From IMG/VR virus record IMGVR_UViG_3300032285_000141, positions 1 through 30,667 of that record: DNA of 30,667 nt; one strand, written 5' to 3'. The stretch's first letter is position 1, and every line of letters begins with the position of its first letter. This stretch comes from a virus. Positions 16,101 to 30,117 of this stretch are shown here, piece by piece. The notes below the pieces were generated by a model. That model did not search any database. It was not told where the DNA came from and saw only the letters and a list, made by a program, of their open reading frames with translations. A program made the translations under genes and the position numbers.

Positions 16101-16317
16101 CATATCCATTGGAATCAAATGAGTTTTGATTGGCAAATGCTTTAGAAACAATTACTGCAACAACCATATTAATAGCCATTGCTGTTGCTATAGCACCAAC
16201 AGTCATAGCAGTTGCAAATACACCTTCAGCTACTAATGCGGCAACAATCATTGTTCCAAATGCAAATGCTGGAACAGAAAAAATCATCAGAAATATTGCC
16301 AAATAAAGTTTACGCAT
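13156..16317 (-). CDS. Central tail tip protein, lambda J-like (host specificity)
   Basis: A 1053-residue protein at the lambda gpJ position, about the usual size. Residues 1-60 are unusually hydrophobic and start like a signal peptide (MRKLYLAIFLMIFSVPAFA followed by small-residue repeats). The J-like core includes LPVVYGSAYIGGIITDLSIS, then CAIIHLSY-like beta modules, RYGCAIPLAQVD, the CCDCLIKYTEITGLWGV block and KSGREDLQIQVTVSFIGIEL with GDIVTVTN. Fibronectin-like domains (IQIQAYTAPNGITQYMEIW) and a Ser/Thr-rich C-terminal part follow. It forms the tail tip and probably contacts the receptor. The start is ATG 16317 in a TAATG junction; four extra residues in front are less likely. Confidence 0.85.
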   Translation of the reverse strand: MRKLYLAIFLMIFSVPAFAFGTMIVAALVAEGVFATAMTVGAIATAMAINMVVAVIVSKAFANQNSFDSNGYASGSSPNPGNSQQVPPATDNKLPVVYGSAYIGGIITDLSISSDNQQLYYVLSICEVTSTNTGQTADTITFGNIYYGGKKVVFQSNGYTVASLLDESTGASDTSVNGRIEIFLYSNGSNTPANSSQSAISVMQTAGLTYQWDANKLMTNCAFAIIHLSYSQSANVTGINQTKFQVTNSLTNTGDCIKDYLINTRYGCAIPLAQVDTASLTALTTYSNGSFSYTNSSGGTSTQPRFKFNGSLDTTRTVMDNLQDMASCCDCLIKYTEITGLWGVVVQSPTYTIAMDINDSNMISAIQITPLDIAASYNVVECKFPDITNQSAFNSTTFDLASLDPALLYPNEPVNKVSFSFPLTSNSVTAQYLATRVLKSGREDLQIQVTVSFIGIELDAGDIVTVTNSNYGWVAKLFRVNKVVQQFNDDGSIAVQLSMSEYNPTVYDDADITQFQPTPNTGIGSPTTFGNLTAPSVYSSSETANVPYIQIQAYTAPNGITQYMEIWYSAFSNPLTTQMVFAGTSEIQSNGNPYQPLTLISPVTLTNIPSGNWYFFTRTVNSLASSSYSPASSLFTWRPRTFQYSQRYLSVAYADDAVGTGFSFSPRGKAYYGLFNQNNATPNPVASNYTWYLAPTAFNSTGALIYLLYINRNDRRFSFSTGFAAYAAGSGSFVPTSTATYDPSQWGGLPDGTNIIDLDLRTGQLTQTGTTSVGTGELSIINNPDGTLKAQLQEYLDFGGAYTKTSSVALLTIDIYGRVVGFETPDDFNYTEQVFTATSGQTVFSVTRSSTYISGQCWVFRNGLKLSPSEYTDTSGSTGTVTLGIGAITGDIITIVSFRSQNSGTGVYASFSFNSANLTNQATYTASGFTLNTGYELLFLNGTIVNAEDYDISGQDITFTGNATGYLQIIQWTPNNLGVANGTPVNADVFTIIGQTLYSFAYNINAFNLYGNGCLYKQGTDYTTGTNTFTLTNTPTTNTNILVQQTFARTGAA

Positions 16318-16751
16318 TACTGAATCCAATTTTCATCTAATTTGGTAAACCCAAATTTTTCATATTTAACATTAGGGCTAGAAGGCATTTTTCCTATTGC
16401 AAACATACATATTCTGCCATCTTCTTTTAATTTATTGCCATATTCAATATATTTCTTTAAAAGCCTATATCCAACACTTGTATTTCTTTGTTCTGGCTTT
16501 ACATACCAAGCTAATTCTTGCATATAAAATGTTTTATCGCACCAAAGATTATGGGTTATTAAAGCCATTATTAAACCAACACCATCTTCAATATAAATAA
16601 TTCCAGCACCAGCTAATATTGAATCTAGCAGTCTATTCCAATATGGTTCATTATCTAAACTATGATATTGTTTTATATTGCTTTCAGCCCTAAATAATTT
16701 CATTATTTCTATTATTTGTGGCTTATCGTATTTTGTAGCTTGTCTTATCAT
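16317..16751 (-). CDS. GNAT-type N-acetyltransferase in the tail module
   Basis: A 144-residue acetyltransferase of the GNAT superfamily. The central IIYIEDGVGLIMALITH strands, the FYMQELAWYVKPEQRNTSVG block with the acetyl-CoA pyrophosphate loop (Q88-R-N-T-S-V-G94, a variant of Q/R-x2-G-x-G/A), then the helix YRLLKKYIEYGNKL and the C-terminal YEKFGFTKLDE are all in order. It would transfer acetyl groups from acetyl-CoA to an unknown amine. It is coupled to the tail-tip gene before (4-base overlap) and J-like gene after (TAATG), so it may modify a tail protein; acetyltransferases at this place recur in some phages. Confidence 0.75.
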   Translation of the reverse strand: MIRQATKYDKPQIIEIMKLFRAESNIKQYHSLDNEPYWNRLLDSILAGAGIIYIEDGVGLIMALITHNLWCDKTFYMQELAWYVKPEQRNTSVGYRLLKKYIEYGNKLKEDGRICMFAIGKMPSSPNVKYEKFGFTKLDENWIQ

Positions 16752-22648: not shown

Positions 22649-22989
22649 ACTGGCACCACAGGATCATTTCTATAGCAATACAGCGTAGTCGTCATGCGAT
22701 CATCAGCTTCAACAGCCGAATCTATGCGCCATGCTCTATCTCTCCATGTAATACTATAAAGATTTTGGTTATCCACTATTTCTTTAATATTAGGGGTATA
22801 GTTAAGTTTAAAATTAACCAAATCCGTATAAATCCGTTCATCTTTAGTAATATTTAATGAGTTTTTAACGGAATGAACCAACGCTCTGGTCTGAAACCAA
22901 AGTGTAGTTGTTGTAGTTTGCTGACCATAAGTGTCTATGGAATTCACTACTCTATTTATTGATATATTCTCATAACGAGCAATAGCCAT
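22645..22989 (-). CDS. Head closure protein (head-tail connector)
   Basis: A 114-residue beta-barrel-like protein: YENISINRVVNSIDTYGQQT, then TLWFQTRALVHSVKN and the closing YSITWRDRAWRIDSAVEADD, the strand pattern of the phage head-tail joining (SPP1 gp16-like) family. It would plug the head portal vertex after packaging. It overlaps its neighbours by one and four bases and sits between adaptor and tail terminator, the usual order. Confidence 0.7.
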   Translation of the reverse strand: MAIARYENISINRVVNSIDTYGQQTTTTTLWFQTRALVHSVKNSLNITKDERIYTDLVNFKLNYTPNIKEIVDNQNLYSITWRDRAWRIDSAVEADDRMTTTLYCYRNDPVVPV

Positions 22990-23657
22990 TACATCACCAA
23001 TGACTTATAAGGTCGCAATAACTGTGCAACACCAAAAGGTATTTCTTGCAACATTCCAGCAACAGTATTGCTACGATTATTGTAGATATGAGTTAAAAGC
23101 AATAATCCAGCTTGCTTAATTACTGGATATTGCGATAAAGGATTAGCTTTGGTCTGATAAGTAACCATAATGGGGTTGGTCATTACTGTATTCACAGAAT
23201 TTGGCAATCCTTGTGATACAACCACTTTATTTCCTGTTGCATCATAAAAATAATCTGTTGATGCTAAAGTAACCAATGTCGGTGGAGTATTACCATTGTA
23301 ATAAGATACTGAATTAATAACGACACCAACTTGATTTTGGAATGGCTGTGAAACCTCTGGTAAATCCAAGCACATTTGTGTTCCAGTAGTGTTTGTAGCC
23401 CCATAGTATGCTTTGTAAGTAATGGGGAATATGGACATACCTAAATAATCTTCAATAGCCATACGAGTCGCTAATTCAATGCTAGACAAGTAAGTATCTT
23501 GGCTTTCATCATTAAAAAGATTAAGCTGTTGTGTAATCTCATCTAAAGTAAGCCAAGCCGTTTGTATATCACGGCTTGTTTGCTCAACCTTTTCATAAGA
23601 ATAAGGATTCCTAGATGAGCCTAAAAAAGGACCATTTATCAAAGCATCGGTTGTCAT
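22989..23657 (-). CDS. Head-tail adaptor (gp6-like)
   Basis: A 222-residue protein: WLTLDEITQQLNLFNDES followed by LSSIELATRMAIEDYLGMSI, which is the start helix pattern of phage gp6/connector adaptor proteins (QLxL...D..L...I..A....E..LG). The strand-rich middle VVINSVSYYNGNTPPTLVTL and C-terminal VIKQAGLLLLTHIYNNRS follow the same family. It would bind below the portal. It follows the second capsid gene by four bases. Confidence 0.8.
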   Translation of the reverse strand: MTTDALINGPFLGSSRNPYSYEKVEQTSRDIQTAWLTLDEITQQLNLFNDESQDTYLSSIELATRMAIEDYLGMSIFPITYKAYYGATNTTGTQMCLDLPEVSQPFQNQVGVVINSVSYYNGNTPPTLVTLASTDYFYDATGNKVVVSQGLPNSVNTVMTNPIMVTYQTKANPLSQYPVIKQAGLLLLTHIYNNRSNTVAGMLQEIPFGVAQLLRPYKSLVM

Positions 23658-23660
23658 TTA

Positions 23661-24704
23661 TCAAGCTCCGTATAAACGGACACCAGCAAATACATCACGA
23701 ATTGTGCTAACTACACGCTTTTCGCAATACATAGTAATAAATCCTGGGGCTGTTTGATCTAAACGCTGAATGTTCATTTCTTCACGATCAGCAATAGTTA
23801 CAAATCTTTCCCATTCAGCCAAATAAACTGGATAATTCCCAGAAGCGGCTGTTTGCATATAAGGGTTGGAAATAACTTTATGACCAAATACATAAAGCAA
23901 AGCACCGCCATCATCATCACCAACTTCAATAAAAATTGGAAGTTGAGCAGTATTCTTTAACTTGCGAATCTGAGCAATGGTAGTTGGGTGCATCATCCAA
24001 GCAGTTGTAGGCTTATAAAGATATTGTGAAGGCAAAGCGGCTTGTAAATTAGCTAAGTCATCATAAGAAATTGCTGTAGCGGATGCTTGTGCTACTTGCA
24101 ATACAGTATGTTTACCATTGGTAATGGCAGAACCATTAGAGCCAAAAGCGGCGGCTGTAGTAGAGCCAGCATAGCTATTTAAACCACGCAAACCAGCAGT
24201 ACCACCATAATTTACAGTAGTAGATCCAGATTGGTCATTGTTATACATCATAGAAAGAGCTTCTTGCTGGGCAAATTGCAATGCAATGTCAGTAAGGATA
24301 GTTTCTTCTAAGTAATTTACATCGGATAAAACCGCTGTACGAATAGGGGCAGAAGCATTTAATACACGAACTGGGATTTGCCAAAACTTAACATCTTCAC
24401 CAGATGTAGCATTATCGCTATTTACTGCATAGCCCCAAGGATTGTTAGAGCCATCTTGAATATTGGTAACAGTACCAGTATTTACTACAAAGGCTTCATC
24501 TGAGCCAATAGTTGTGATTACACGACTGCCAGCCATACGGAATGGATTTCCATAACGCAATGCGGCAAACGCATCATCGTAAATTACACGACCACCAACC
24601 CCTGAACCTGAACCAGTAAGGGCAGATGCTTCTTTTAAGTTTACTTTTGCTTTGCCATCAACAATGGCTTCCTTAACTGCGTCAAGAACTAGATTAGTTG
24701 TCAT
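23661..24704 (-). CDS. Second major capsid protein paralogue, no scaffold domain
   Basis: A 347-residue HK97-fold capsid protein homologous along its whole length to the product of the upstream gene. Shared blocks are KEASALTGSGSGVGGRVIYD (from K24), the A-domain core (WGYAVN, FWQIPVRVLNASAPIRTAVL and QEALSMMYNNDQ), YGG-x2-GLRGL-x2-YAG and the C-terminal RLDQTAPGFITMYCEKR. Only about 23 residues precede the conserved KEASALTG, against about 103 in the first copy, so the delta/scaffold domain is missing. A TTG at 24714-24716 would add four residues; I use ATG 24704 with TTGGAATTAAAA upstream. A terminator-like hairpin precedes it, so it is probably expressed less than, or tuned against, the first copy. 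Confidence 0.85.
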   Translation of the reverse strand: MTTNLVLDAVKEAIVDGKAKVNLKEASALTGSGSGVGGRVIYDDAFAALRYGNPFRMAGSRVITTIGSDEAFVVNTGTVTNIQDGSNNPWGYAVNSDNATSGEDVKFWQIPVRVLNASAPIRTAVLSDVNYLEETILTDIALQFAQQEALSMMYNNDQSGSTTVNYGGTAGLRGLNSYAGSTTAAAFGSNGSAITNGKHTVLQVAQASATAISYDDLANLQAALPSQYLYKPTTAWMMHPTTIAQIRKLKNTAQLPIFIEVGDDDGGALLYVFGHKVISNPYMQTAASGNYPVYLAEWERFVTIADREEMNIQRLDQTAPGFITMYCEKRVVSTIRDVFAGVRLYGA

Positions 24705-24726
24705 TTTTAATTCCAATAGAGATTAA

Positions 24727-24755
24727 GAAAGGGGGGTTTTTAACCCCCCATTTCA
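24727..24755 (-). terminator. Strong hairpin between the two capsid genes
   Basis: GGGGGGTT (24742-24749 read on the minus strand) pairs perfectly with AACCCCCC (24731-24738), loop AAA, and GAAA/TTTC extend the stem with one bulge. On the minus strand the hairpin is followed by TTTCTTAATC, an intrinsic terminator form. It starts a few bases after the stop of the first capsid gene and lies about 25 bases before the second, so it is expected to cut transcription partially (attenuator), since many late genes lie beyond it. Confidence 0.75.
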
Positions 24756-26093
24756 TTAGGTTGCAGTACCAGTAGAACGGAAACGGATAATTGCAAATGG
24801 ATCTACAACGCTGGTGGCGAGCCTTTTTTCGCCATAGAAAGTTATTGAGCCAGGCAATGTCTGGTCATATCTACGGAGAATCATGTTCAAGCGATCAACG
24901 ATTGTGAAGCCTTTTTGGAAATCACCGAAATACATTGGATACAAGCTGTTAGTACCAGCAGAGCCAGATGAAGTTTGTGAAGGAGTATCAAGATACTTAT
25001 TCACTACAACATTAAAGCCTAACAATGTACCAACGATACCATCGTTACGAGCCAAACCATCAACATAGATTGGGCGACCTTGATCATCTACCAAACCACG
25101 AATCTGTTGTAACAGAACTGGGTTGATAACAAAACAAGCTGATTCTGTCCAATATTGCTGTGGCAAGCTGTAAATAAAGTTCACAACATCTTTGTATTTG
25201 ATGTTAGCCGCACCAACAGTATTTGCGTTAGTTGTTAACTGGTCATAAGTAGCCAAGCTATGCAAACCGCTAGAAGAACCAGTACCAGAAGTACCGAAAG
25301 CGGCTGTAGAGATTGTTCCACCTGTGTAGGAAGAATTAGCACCAGCATACTGATCTAAACCACGCAAACCATTAGAACCCCCATAAGGCAATGATGTTGC
25401 GCCTTGGTCGTTATTCTGGATCATGGAAAGAGCTTCAGCTTGTGAGAACTCAGCCAACATATCGCTAACAACATTACCTTCCAAACCATCAATATCATCC
25501 AAAGCCGCTGTACGGATAGGGAACTGGACATTTAAGTCTTGGAGAGTTAATTGCCAAATGTTTGTATCTTCAGTTGTTAGTGATCCGTTATTATTAATTG
25601 CATAACCCCAAGCGGCTCCAGCATTGCCTACCTTTGCACGGAACTGATAAGTTGCACCATCAGTAGCAACAGCACGAGCAACACCACGCATTGGATTTAG
25701 CAAACGCAATGGAACGAATACTGGATCATAGGCGGTACGACCACCGATGCCAGCACCAGAGCCAGTTAATGCAGATGCTTCTTTAAAATACGCATCATAT
25801 TGACCAGCATCTTCAAACATTTTGATTTCTTTTTGTACTTTAGCTTCGCCAGCAACAAAAGATTTCAACTGCTCTTTAACCATGCGGTTTACTTCAGAAC
25901 CAATAGACTTGTAAGTCTTGATTGCTGGAGTTGCACCTAATTGGCTAACTTTAGCTTCCAAAGCGGCAACTTTTTCTTCAAAAGATACAACTGCTTCTTC
26001 AACTTTTTTTACTGCTTCAGCTTTGCCTTCTTCAATCTTAGCTACTGTATTAGCTTCGATTTCATCTAGCTTTGCAATGATTTGCTCAGACAT
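24756..26093 (-). CDS. Major capsid protein with N-terminal scaffold (delta) domain
   Basis: A 445-residue HK97-fold capsid protein. Residues 1-100 are a highly charged coiled coil (AKLDEIEANTVAKIEEGKAE, FEEKVAALEAKVSQL), the delta/scaffold domain of HK97-type precursors, which the protease gene just upstream would remove. KEASALTGSGAGIGG (from K104) marks the likely start of the mature N-arm. The core holds WGYAIN, DLNVQFPIRTAALDDIDGLE, QAEALSMIQNNDQGA and YGGSNGLRGLDQYAG, and the C-terminal part RYDQTLPGSITFYGEKRL. A complete paralogue without the delta domain follows after a hairpin. Confidence 0.9.
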   Translation of the reverse strand: MSEQIIAKLDEIEANTVAKIEEGKAEAVKKVEEAVVSFEEKVAALEAKVSQLGATPAIKTYKSIGSEVNRMVKEQLKSFVAGEAKVQKEIKMFEDAGQYDAYFKEASALTGSGAGIGGRTAYDPVFVPLRLLNPMRGVARAVATDGATYQFRAKVGNAGAAWGYAINNNGSLTTEDTNIWQLTLQDLNVQFPIRTAALDDIDGLEGNVVSDMLAEFSQAEALSMIQNNDQGATSLPYGGSNGLRGLDQYAGANSSYTGGTISTAAFGTSGTGSSSGLHSLATYDQLTTNANTVGAANIKYKDVVNFIYSLPQQYWTESACFVINPVLLQQIRGLVDDQGRPIYVDGLARNDGIVGTLLGFNVVVNKYLDTPSQTSSGSAGTNSLYPMYFGDFQKGFTIVDRLNMILRRYDQTLPGSITFYGEKRLATSVVDPFAIIRFRSTGTAT

Positions 26094-26103
26094 GATATTT
26101 CCT

Positions 26104-26907
26104 TTACTTAATGCGTTTAGATAATACCTTTAAGAATTCTCTTTCCTCTAGGGCTTTGAGAATCTTATCGGCTTCATTTACCACCGCTTCAGGCTCACCC
26201 TGTTGTGGGGTATCTTTAATAATTTCCTCTACAACATCACGCTGTTCAAGTATTTTCTTAAAGACAGAAGATGCGGTGGTCGCACCCTTCTTGGAAAGAC
26301 CAGCATCACGCAAGGCTTCCTCAACTATACGAGGATTTAAATGCCCTTCAGCATCAAAACACTCTAACTTTTGAATATTGGCTTCTGGGTTATTAGGATA
26401 CATGACTACACTAATCTCACGCAGACCGCCTTTTTTAATTTGAAAATAGGCTTCATCAGAAGGCTCATCCACAGGATTGCCATCTGCATCAACCATAATC
26501 GCTTCATCTGCATAAGCACCAACAGATACACCGCCAAATAAATTTGGTGATTCTTTTAAGACTGAATAAATATCTGAACCAGAAGATGTATTCATAAACA
26601 AACGACCTTTAGCTGTCATACCAGCTTCGTCAAAAGAAATTTCATCCCATTGACCTACAGGCATACCCATATCGTTATGATTTAAAAACATTGGCATTGG
26701 CTTGCCAGCCTTGGCAAACTCATCCGCCCATTGTGCAAAACCTTCAGGCTGGTAGTTAAAACGGCGTCCATCGGAACCTTCTCTGGCTCCCCAAGTAGTC
26801 GCTCTAGCCTCGATTGTTCCGCTAGGGTTTTGTGCTTCGTCTGCGGATTGTCCCAGTTGAACTTTTGCTTCGCAAACTAGAAGTAGATTTTTCATTGATA
26901 GCCCCAT
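26104..26907 (-). CDS. HK97-family prohead protease
   Basis: A 267-residue peptidase of the S78/HK97 prohead protease type that matures the procapsid. Conserved catalytic features are the His in MFLNHND (H77), the Ser in GGVSVGAYA (S128) and the Glu in LREISVVMYPNNPEAN (E164); the EISVV-x-x-P-x-NP block is diagnostic. The C-terminal region (RDVVEEIIKDTPQQ onward) is charged. Two near starts exist (26907 and 26895). Its 5' end overlaps a 68-residue ORF in another frame by 86 bases. It is ten bases before the first capsid gene, the usual order. Confidence 0.9.
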   Translation of the reverse strand: MGLSMKNLLLVCEAKVQLGQSADEAQNPSGTIEARATTWGAREGSDGRRFNYQPEGFAQWADEFAKAGKPMPMFLNHNDMGMPVGQWDEISFDEAGMTAKGRLFMNTSSGSDIYSVLKESPNLFGGVSVGAYADEAIMVDADGNPVDEPSDEAYFQIKKGGLREISVVMYPNNPEANIQKLECFDAEGHLNPRIVEEALRDAGLSKKGATTASSVFKKILEQRDVVEEIIKDTPQQGEPEAVVNEADKILKALEEREFLKVLSKRIK

Positions 26908-27028
26908 TGTTAATAGCCTGATTATTATCTTGTATTTTTGGGGGTTTAACTACATTTTTTGGTAGTTTAACATTACTATTTTTAATTTGTAAATTTAATA
27001 TATCTAAAATTTTGTCTAATAGTAACAT
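26822..27028 (-). CDS. Small basic ORF between portal and protease
   Basis: A 68-residue basic ORF beginning MLLLDKILDILNLQIKNSNV and ending SLRSKSSTGTIRRRSTKP. The ATG overlaps the portal stop (TAATG), suggesting translational coupling, and it fills the 120 bases before the protease start. Its last 29 codons overlap the protease gene in a different frame. The family is not recognised and the overlapping part may be chance, so expression is plausible but unproven. Confidence 0.4.
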   Translation of the reverse strand: MLLLDKILDILNLQIKNSNVKLPKNVVKPPKIQDNNQAINNGAINEKSTSSLRSKSSTGTIRRRSTKP

Positions 27029-28425
27029 TATTTACCTATATTCATCTTGCGTTTTTGATTTCCACCGTTACCGCCAGTATCTTGTGGTGATGAGCCTGAT
27101 ATTGGTTCTGCCATATTGGATTTAGAAGTTAATTCATCTTCACCTTCCATTTTAGCCATATTAAGATATTCTCTAGCTTCATTAGGAGTCATAATACCAC
27201 CAGTTACTCCAGCATTAACAAAGTTCATTTGATCTAATGGAGCACCTTTAAGAAAGTCTTTAGTATCAAAGCGGATACATAAACTAGGATAACCTTTTAA
27301 TAGATGACTATTTAGCTTTTGTTCAATATTTATAACCATAGGATACATAGTTGTTTTATAAAATTCATCCAACAATGTTTGCGTATTATTAAACTTTTGG
27401 TCTGAAATACCAAGCATTGCTGGAGGAACACCAAATAAAGCACAAATCCGTTTTATTGTTTGTTCTTTTAATTTAGCACAATCCGCATCTTGTAGAGTAA
27501 GCATCTGTAAAGGCTGATATTTCATGCCTTGATCTAATAGCATACCTTGTCCTGGTTTGCTTAAATCACTTGTTCTAGAGCCTGTCATGCTTGACCATGC
27601 TTCTTTTAATCGTGCCGCAATCTCTTTATATTTGGCGTCTGGAATAACTTGTTCTGTTACAAACATACCAGTAGGCTTTGCGCCGTTCTGCATAATAAAA
27701 TTGGCATATAAATCAATATCTTGGTCTAAGGCTACCAATTCAGTAGCTAGAATACCTTTATTAAAACCAGCTGCACCTTGCCAAGCCGCTTCCTTAATAT
27801 GCATTACCTGATGCGCCGCTAATAATTCATCTTTATTAAATCCATAGCTAGGGGTGGATAGGCGATAAGCTGGATACCTAGCTGGAGTAAGTTGTACTGT
27901 TATTAGTGTGGCATCTAGGTTATACATTTCTAATGGAGTAGCTACAGAATCGGCTTGATCTTTTCTCCACCATAAAGTGAATGTTTCGCCAGCAAGGTCT
28001 TGCCACATTGACCATTGATACCAAAATTCATATTGGCTTTCAAAGTTATTGGGGGTGCTAAGTAGATTTAATACTTGTTTAGCTTTTGCTTTATCTCTTG
28101 CTCCAACGGCAGTATTTTCCAAAGCATTAACAAATGTGCCATCGTCTGTCTTATACATAACACGAATTGGTAACTGCGCTAATGCTCTAGCTTTAACACC
28201 AACGCAACTCATAATAGTGCTGTTTCGGCTTAATACTGACATATCCACAGTCCGACCAGCGGCTGTAGTGCTAGATGTAGTTACATAAAGTAATTGCTGT
28301 GAAACAGTTTGCTTGCCACCTTGACCTTGATAAATAACATTATTACCAAGTTGTGTTTGACCAAAAAGGGTATTCGATTCTGTTGAATCTACTTTCTTTC
28401 CTTTGAAAATATCCAAAATACCCAT
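27028..28425 (-). CDS. HK97-type portal protein
   Basis: A 465-residue portal subunit that forms the dodecameric DNA channel. MGILDIFKGKK start, then the conserved SVLSRNSTIMSCVGVKARAL, FWYQWSMWQDLAGETFTLW, HQVMHIKEAAWQGAAGFNKG and the CALFGVPPAMLGISDQKFNN block near residue 345-355 (family hallmark) are all visible. The C-terminus is flexible and polar (SGSSPQDTGGNGGNQKRK). It starts after a short AT-rich inverted repeat and an AGGAG ribosome binding site. It follows terminase by 30 bases. Confidence 0.9.
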   Translation of the reverse strand: MGILDIFKGKKVDSTESNTLFGQTQLGNNVIYQGQGGKQTVSQQLLYVTTSSTTAAGRTVDMSVLSRNSTIMSCVGVKARALAQLPIRVMYKTDDGTFVNALENTAVGARDKAKAKQVLNLLSTPNNFESQYEFWYQWSMWQDLAGETFTLWWRKDQADSVATPLEMYNLDATLITVQLTPARYPAYRLSTPSYGFNKDELLAAHQVMHIKEAAWQGAAGFNKGILATELVALDQDIDLYANFIMQNGAKPTGMFVTEQVIPDAKYKEIAARLKEAWSSMTGSRTSDLSKPGQGMLLDQGMKYQPLQMLTLQDADCAKLKEQTIKRICALFGVPPAMLGISDQKFNNTQTLLDEFYKTTMYPMVINIEQKLNSHLLKGYPSLCIRFDTKDFLKGAPLDQMNFVNAGVTGGIMTPNEAREYLNMAKMEGEDELTSKSNMAEPISGSSPQDTGGNGGNQKRKMNIGK

Positions 28426-28455: not shown

Positions 28456-30117
28456 TTAAAACGATCTAAACCCAAAGCTAGTTGAAGTATATGGGTTATC
28501 TAATGAACAATGTGCTGCAATAATCATGGCTATTATGCCATCAACTTTAGCAGATTTGTCAGCTTCGTTTTTTCTAATCTTAATATTACCATTTACATCC
28601 TCGTAAACCTCACAGTTACCTAACTGCCAACCTAAAAATGGGTTGCCATCATGCTTAATTTGCTTATTAAGTATTAATTTCTCTATATATTTTGATGGAT
28701 TAGATAACACACTCATACCTTGCCCAACTTTTTTTACTGGGACACCATTTTCAAATAACCTAGCAACCATTGAAGCGGCATTATAAGCATCATAACCTAC
28801 TTCCTTAACATCATACTTGGCACATTCCTGAAGAATATAGTCACTAATCTCTCTATCATCCATAACATTACCTTCAGTAAGCTTTAAGATGCCTGAGTCC
28901 ACAGCAACTCTAAATATGTCTTGATAATGCTTTGGGATTAACTCATACCCAATCTCAGGTAAGAAAAATTGCCAATGTGCTCTGTAATCTAGTTCACCAT
29001 ATCTTTTTAAAGTACATACAGCATTCAGGTCTCTTGTAGCGGCTAAGTCGAACCCAATAAAGACGGCCTCGGGCTGTCGCCCATCGTCCTCAGCAATAGC
29101 CTCATCCCAATGATTTCTGTCTAACCAAGCAGAGTTAGCACTAACATATATGTTAAGTGTTTTGCAAAGGAACTCATTAAGCACCGCTGGTTTATGCTTT
29201 GCTTCTTCCGCTCTTTGCTCAATAGCTTCTTGAAAGACAGAGATACCATGCATTGGATTAGCTTTAGCCCAAGTCTTAGGGTCTCTCCAATCGTCTTGAG
29301 GGTCTAAACCATACAGCAAACCAAACCATCTAGGATTATCAGTAGCTTCCCCATTCAGCATAGATTGAACCATGCTCATATCTTCATAGAACTTGGTGTC
29401 TTTAGAGAAAGATGCCGTTGTAATATAGATTCGTAATGGGTTTTGCCTTGCGACCATACCTGAATGTAATACCTCAATGGAATTTCTATCCACAATCTGA
29501 GCCGCTTCATCCACGATTACGCAAGATGGATTCTTACCATCCCCAGATTTCTTTGTGTCTCTAGAAAGAGCTTTAAATGTAGACTGTGAGTCTCCGCCCT
29601 TCTTTACTTCGTATCTTGATACATTAAATAGACAAGATAAGTCTGTAGGCATTGCTTCTACGAATCCTTTAGCCGCATCAAATACAATAGTTGCTTGCTC
29701 TCTATTGGTTGCCAAAGTAAACACCTCTGCGCCCGATTCACCACATAGTAGTTCGTAAAGTGCTATTGAAGCTGTAATAGTTGATTTACCAGCTTTACGA
29801 GGAATAAAAACGATTACATCAGTAACCATTCTTTTAGTCTTATCCTTCTTCCCCCTGAATCCATAGATAGCACAGATAAGGAAGATTTGAAATGGCTCTA
29901 ATATTAATGGTTCTCCAGCTTGTGGACCTTTAGTATGTTTTAGGTTTCCGCAAAAGGATAGGAAATGCTGTGGCACTCTTTCATCGAATACCCATTCCCA
30001 TTCTTTATTCTCATACTGATTGATAAATCTTTGGCAAGCTAATCTAATATCTTTGCAAACATTAATCTCGCCTTTTATTACATCGTGTGCATATTCAAAG
30101 CCTGTCTCCCATTTCAT
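28456..30117 (-). CDS. terL: Terminase large subunit
   Basis: A 553-residue packaging motor. The ATPase domain has Walker A PRKAGKS (106-112) and Walker B CVIVDEAAQ (VIVDE 200-204), with the TTASF coupling motif at about 233-237. The nuclease domain has AVFIGFDLAATRD (D357) and EVGYDAYNAASM (D442), the metal-binding aspartates of the RNase-H fold. It is of the terminase 1 type. It overlaps the small subunit gene by four bases. Packaging mode (cos or headful) cannot be read from this window. Confidence 0.95.
   Translation of the reverse strand: MKWETGFEYAHDVIKGEINVCKDIRLACQRFINQYENKEWEWVFDERVPQHFLSFCGNLKHTKGPQAGEPLILEPFQIFLICAIYGFRGKKDKTKRMVTDVIVFIPRKAGKSTITASIALYELLCGESGAEVFTLATNREQATIVFDAAKGFVEAMPTDLSCLFNVSRYEVKKGGDSQSTFKALSRDTKKSGDGKNPSCVIVDEAAQIVDRNSIEVLHSGMVARQNPLRIYITTASFSKDTKFYEDMSMVQSMLNGEATDNPRWFGLLYGLDPQDDWRDPKTWAKANPMHGISVFQEAIEQRAEEAKHKPAVLNEFLCKTLNIYVSANSAWLDRNHWDEAIAEDDGRQPEAVFIGFDLAATRDLNAVCTLKRYGELDYRAHWQFFLPEIGYELIPKHYQDIFRVAVDSGILKLTEGNVMDDREISDYILQECAKYDVKEVGYDAYNAASMVARLFENGVPVKKVGQGMSVLSNPSKYIEKLILNKQIKHDGNPFLGWQLGNCEVYEDVNGNIKIRKNEADKSAKVDGIIAMIIAAHCSLDNPYTSTSFGFRSF

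Follow-up and report, generated by a model that had tools for sequence, protein, structure and literature searches.

Known capsids with one or two HK97-fold proteins

Proteins of the HK97 type normally form both the pentamers and the hexamers of a shell from a single gene. In phage HK97 itself, one capsid gene (gp5) serves both kinds of capsomer and encodes a delta domain of ~100 residues, and the genes are laid out in the order portal, protease, capsid, and connector. The locus described here has this same layout around a capsid gene called A, and differs from HK97 in that a second capsid gene without a delta domain, called B, comes after it. The closest solved structure is that of Rcc01687, the capsid protein of the Rhodobacter capsulatus gene transfer agent (RcGTA; sequence E-values of 1.8e-10 for A and 5.3e-6 for B), a particle whose oblate head is built, pentamers as well as hexamers, from one protein (PMC7296036). 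A 2025 paper describes T4 as the single virus that divides the pentamer and hexamer roles between two HK97-fold proteins, other HK97 capsids relying on one flexible protein (PMC12407261).

Like A and B, T4 gp23 (hexamers) and gp24 (vertices) are two HK97-fold paralogs in one phage. The likeness extends to a long N-terminal piece on the major protein and a short one on the other, and to a cleavage motif after glutamate (PMC9958956, PMC5694885), with cleavage being predicted in the present case; the T4 prohead protease removes 65 residues from gp23 and only 10 from gp24 (PMC9958956). However, gp23 and gp24 are only ~20% identical compared with 37% for A and B, and T4 has a prolate head and separate core scaffold proteins, whereas here the scaffold is built into A, a PF05065 protein of a ~38-kb siphophage. 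A Pfam scan (E <= 0.001) of A and B gave PF05065 as the sole family and no match to the T4 capsid protein family; the pair, which matches PF05065 only, lies outside the T4 family and has a separate origin, and nothing indicates that the two duplications descend from a common one. A single shell made from two HK97-fold paralogs, as proposed here, is also known from the two-component Family 2B encapsulin of Streptomyces lydicus (PMC12407261), which, unlike A and B, is associated with no DNA packaging, delta domain, or protease and whose subunits mix randomly within pentamers. One paper credits Bacillus phage B450 with "two distinct major capsid proteins", by annotation only. The open-licence literature yielded no tandem HK97-fold phage capsid pair beyond T4 and no paper describing the present pair.

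The capsid locus

The window (the whole stretch of DNA analyzed, a virus record of 30,667 bases) contains a siphophage-type head operon, all on the minus strand, in the order terS, terL, portal, a 68-aa ORF, S78 prohead protease, A, B, connector, and tail genes. Its main features are as follows:

28456..30117, minus strand: terminase large subunit (phrog_9, 465 bits)
27028..28425, minus strand: portal protein (PF04860, 204 bits)
26104..26907, minus strand: prohead protease, Peptidase S78 (PF04586, 39.4 bits, cut-off 21)
24756..26093, minus strand: capsid gene A, 445 aa (PF05065, TIGR01554, leader length)
25779..26093, minus strand: delta domain of A, residues 1-105, ending at F-K-E|A-S (conservation of the E site)
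24731..24749, minus strand: G+C hairpin followed by TTTCTT between the A stop and the B start, resembling an intrinsic terminator (folding)
23661..24704, minus strand: capsid gene B, 347 aa with ATG start (PF05065, identity to A, fold model)
24633..24704, minus strand: leader of B, ~24 residues, ending at L-K-E|A-S (helix prediction, amphipathicity, conservation of the E site)
22989..23657, minus strand: head-tail connector gene directly 3' of B (phrog_40/442, PF05135)

Two further ORFs on the minus strand deserve mention. The 68-aa ORF between portal and protease (26822-27028) has no PHROG match and overlaps the start of the protease ORF, and an ORF flanked by two tail genes (16317-16751) matches phrog_1249, annotated as an acetyltransferase, a name that is doubtful at this position in the tail block.

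The reading frames of A and B are both open and complete. The listed start of B is a TTG at 24716 (351 aa), and an alternative ATG at 24704 (347 aa), with GGA upstream, fits the alignment of relatives better. Both proteins score well above the cut-offs of PF05065 (116.8 bits for A and 75.5 for B, cut-off 24.2) and of the NCBIfam profile TIGR01554 (111.6 and 79.2 bits, cut-off 27.5), and they align with each other over nearly all of B with 129 of 352 columns identical (37%, E 3e-69). A belongs to the HK97-fold major capsid protein family and carries a charged, helical delta domain of ~104 residues. The motif KEASALTGSG, which begins at residue 104 of A, is preceded by 103 residues in A and by 23 in B, and the parts following the leaders comprise 342 and 324 residues, respectively. 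A sequence-only reading of the window had described two intact HK97-fold capsid genes in tandem, one with and one without a scaffold domain; reading frames, profiles, and mutual identity confirm this description, the motifs it quoted (KEASALTGSG, PIRTA, and others) are all present, and its residue counts (~103 versus 23 in the leader, 342 versus 324 afterwards) are right.

Conservation of the pair in related phages

More than 300 loci were collected from IMG/VR scans, a species-genome scan, and tblastn searches of cultured phages, the scans returning the best-scoring relatives. B follows directly after A on the same strand at 300 of these loci (some contigs being counted repeatedly), and the 264 complete pairs include 204 that are distinct in DNA (from IMG/VR, MAG contigs, and the cultured phage P19250A), every one in the order A then B. 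Across the distinct pairs, leader lengths range from 87 to 111 aa in A and from 21 to 32 aa in B without overlap, and the delta-type N-terminus of ~100 residues is present in A and absent from B. Repeated in this way, the difference in leader length between A and B is far beyond chance. Where A or B occurs alone, the contig or fetched stretch ends at or before the expected place of the partner, except in three outgroup phages with a single major capsid protein (MCP), which were counted as A-like among the A-only loci. The pair is a fixed feature of the group, with no clear single-copy member among the surveyed loci, although a distant sister group without B could be missed since the scans return only the best-scoring relatives. 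Among bacterial and archaeal genomes, hits were confined to five MAG contigs, each of which carries the pair.

The B frame is damaged at two loci, through a frameshift (L143) or loss of the C-terminus together with a 679-nt gap between A and B (L153). Sequencing errors or genuine decay may explain both, and insertion followed by decay, or an assembly error, is possible for L153. The sequence-only reading had named as grounds for giving up a two-component capsid that close relatives have lost the second copy or let it decay; this was looked for and did not overturn it. An assembly artefact was ruled out by the presence of the pair in independent contigs and in a complete cultured genome.

The phages that carry the pair form a widespread and mostly aquatic group; they are small siphophages common in aquatic metagenomes, with the Methylophilaceae phage P19250A as cultured representative. 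Genes 0005 and 0006 of P19250A resemble the window pair (68% and 52% identity to A and B, respectively), with the same order and hairpin. Since gene 0006, the B homolog, is annotated as a hypothetical protein, the pair has gone unnamed and the second protein overlooked.

The intergenic hairpin and expression

The hairpin between A and B in the window has a minimum free energy of -18.2 kcal/mol (z -2.59). A simple scan detected an intergenic hairpin in 147 of 149 distinct sequences of relatives, compared with 3% of mononucleotide shuffles, and the hairpins comprise 99 different stem-loop sequences; the two misses are a locus where the gap call was shortened (L145) and one where an imperfect hairpin is visible (L294). 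In the single-MCP phages Bcep176, RHph_X2_25, and K303, a hairpin lies directly 3' of the only capsid gene, with a T-rich stretch behind it in two of the three, which indicates that A occupies the ancestral slot and B lies behind the capsid terminator. The distance from the B stop to the start of the next gene is about 1-14 nt in relatives, and B probably shares a transcription unit with the connector genes, past the putative capsid terminator. The predicted ribosome site is weaker for B than for A (median -3.3 versus -5.6 kcal/mol; p 8e-20, a value that overstates the number of independent cases because the sequences are related). Together, the position of B behind a terminator-like hairpin and its weaker ribosome site point to A being made in excess over B, although the A:B ratio does not follow from the hairpin alone.

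Leaders and the predicted cleavage site

The junction between leader and body carries the motif hydrophobic-x-E|A at the same aligned place in A and B, usually with alanine after the glutamate. The glutamate is present in all 204 sequences of both proteins, and the full hydrophobic-x-E pattern in 200/204 for A and 203/204 for B. Prohead proteases of T4, phiKZ-type phages, and SPN3US cut after glutamate in such motifs (PMC5694885), and by analogy we infer that the S78 protease, which is of the HK97 type, would cut both A and B at this site. The leader of B has a predicted helix at residues 5-16 that is amphipathic (p 0.004), and its closest parallel is in the leaders of 10-20 residues that act as capsid targeting sequences in T4 (PMC5694885). 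Homology of the B leader to the final delta-domain helix of A was not detected (246 of 500 shuffles reached the score). Given the conserved leader and site, B probably has a short cleavable targeting peptide. The view that B lacks the delta domain holds, while the further claim that it needs no scaffold was too strong for a protein that keeps an amphipathic leader of 21-32 residues and the hydrophobic-x-E|A site.

Structural differences between A and B

The predicted model of B (pLDDT 72.6, pTM 0.71) matches the RcGTA capsid with Z 21.6 and HK97 prohead I with Z 16.7, and on this model B has the HK97 fold. The model of A is poor (pLDDT 45.9), so that the comparison of loops rests on the alignment and the B model. 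Three loop segments are longer in each of the 53 A sequences than in any of the 53 B sequences (21/13, 25/18, and 19/10 residues); judged from how the secondary-structure elements follow one another in the B model, they are flanked by the spine helix and the P-domain strands and belong to the A-domain region. The E-loop and the P-domain core are conserved in both proteins. In T4 gp23, gp24-bypass sites and a hexamer-stabilizing A-loop map to the A domain (PMC9958956). At one locus (L061), B carries an E-loop insert of ~60 residues resembling phage display-type domains, and the A protein of that locus is without it.

Origin, selection, and exchange

In a tree built from the bodies of 53 A and 53 B proteins together with 3 single-copy capsid proteins, A and B fall on opposite sides of a branch (SH-aLRT 86 and 90; outgroups 98), and the root is less certain than the A/B split because the outgroup branches are long. 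These separate clades fit one old duplication that would have preceded diversification of the group. Median dN/dS values (A body 0.15, B body 0.23, B leader 0.41), with the B body never above 1, indicate that both genes are under purifying selection. A decaying pseudogene was ruled out for B by dN/dS and conservation. Sequence change is faster in B than in A (mean identity 61% versus 70%), and in two pairs of loci (L239/L258 and L295/L296) the A proteins are 94-98% identical and the B proteins ~64% (97.8% and 64.3% in L295/L296). Near-identical A next to divergent B suggests exchange of B between lineages, which appears to occur by recombination close to the A-B junction.

Proposed roles of the two proteins

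The reading favored here, with slightly better than even confidence, is that A forms the hexamers and B the vertex pentamers, the two working like T4 gp23 and gp24. One HK97-fold major capsid gene would have been duplicated in tandem and the copies would have split the work. As the abundant subunit with its own delta scaffold, A would drive prohead assembly and form the hexamers; B, scarcer owing to its position behind the capsid terminator and its weaker ribosome site, would join the growing A-driven prohead through its short amphipathic N-terminal peptide and supply the pentamers of the 11 vertices without a portal. Before expansion and packaging, the prohead protease would then trim ~105 residues from A and ~25 from B at the common hydrophobic-x-E|A site. 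For a T=7 head this would correspond to about 360 copies of A and 55 of B. We infer the pentamer placement and the targeting role of the B leader from the low expected copy number of B, the missing delta domain, the targeting-like leader, the shared site, and the altered loops at the capsomer axis. A could also form both pentamers and hexamers, which counts against the vertex assignment. The earlier proposal of a two-component capsid with a specialized second subunit is supported by conservation, selection, separate clades, hairpin, and loops, its scaffold-free part excepted, and among the subunit roles that it had left open the vertex pentamer fits best.

The main rival is that both proteins enter the same capsomers, with B as a scaffold-less filler that leaves fewer delta domains inside the prohead. 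This is credible but unlikely: the two-component HK97-fold encapsulin does form pentamers of mixed composition in which every interface is allowed (PMC12407261), A and B share a conserved E-loop and P-domain core, and B is exchangeable between lineages where A is nearly unchanged, but the hairpin and ribosome site suggest that B is much scarcer than A, and consistent differences in A-domain loop length at the capsomer axis should disturb mixed rings. A form of mixing at a set ratio, in which the terminator and ribosome sites would fix the A:B ratio and thereby the scaffold fill of the prohead and the size of the head, is a little more doubtful again. We know of no phage whose head size is set by mixed scaffold-bearing and scaffold-less subunits.

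It is improbable that B is a low-copy shell subunit elsewhere, surrounding the portal vertex or starting assembly, with A making all hexamers and pentamers. B would then sit fittingly in the transcription unit of the connector genes, whose products are low-copy, past the capsid terminator, but it retains the whole HK97 fold, E-loop, and P-domain, as a lattice subunit would, and to our knowledge no HK97-fold protein occurs solely at the portal vertex. A redundant or conditional B, serving as a spare or for an alternative head size and dispensable in some particles, could explain its faster evolution and the damaged frames of L143 and L153; this is very improbable in view of the intact B in practically all 204 pairs and its body dN/dS of 0.23, and without a delta domain B is unlikely to assemble alone. 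If the vertex assignment of B is true, the pair would represent a second, unrelated division between pentamers and hexamers besides that of T4. It raises the questions of how a subunit lacking the delta domain finds its place in a prohead whose assembly is driven by one, and why an entire group, with no clear loss among 204 pairs, abandoned the capsid made from a single protein.

An N-terminal extension of B in a sublineage

At twelve loci (L040, L042, L047, L051, L054, L055, L065, L112, L113, L130, L147, and L176), the B reading frame continues upstream, in frame, into a phrog_2859 domain of ~100 aa (MPKPTDAMKAEARRGLDWRKEF...GYPSAGRIAWALWGGD...), which is absent from the window. The domain occupies the position in B that matches the delta domain of A, to which it is unrelated, and an internal ATG precedes the usual B leader in the extended loci. 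The same domain is also N-terminal in annotated capsid proteins of ~840-975 aa from Synechococcus phage S-CBS3 and Roseobacter phage CRP-821.
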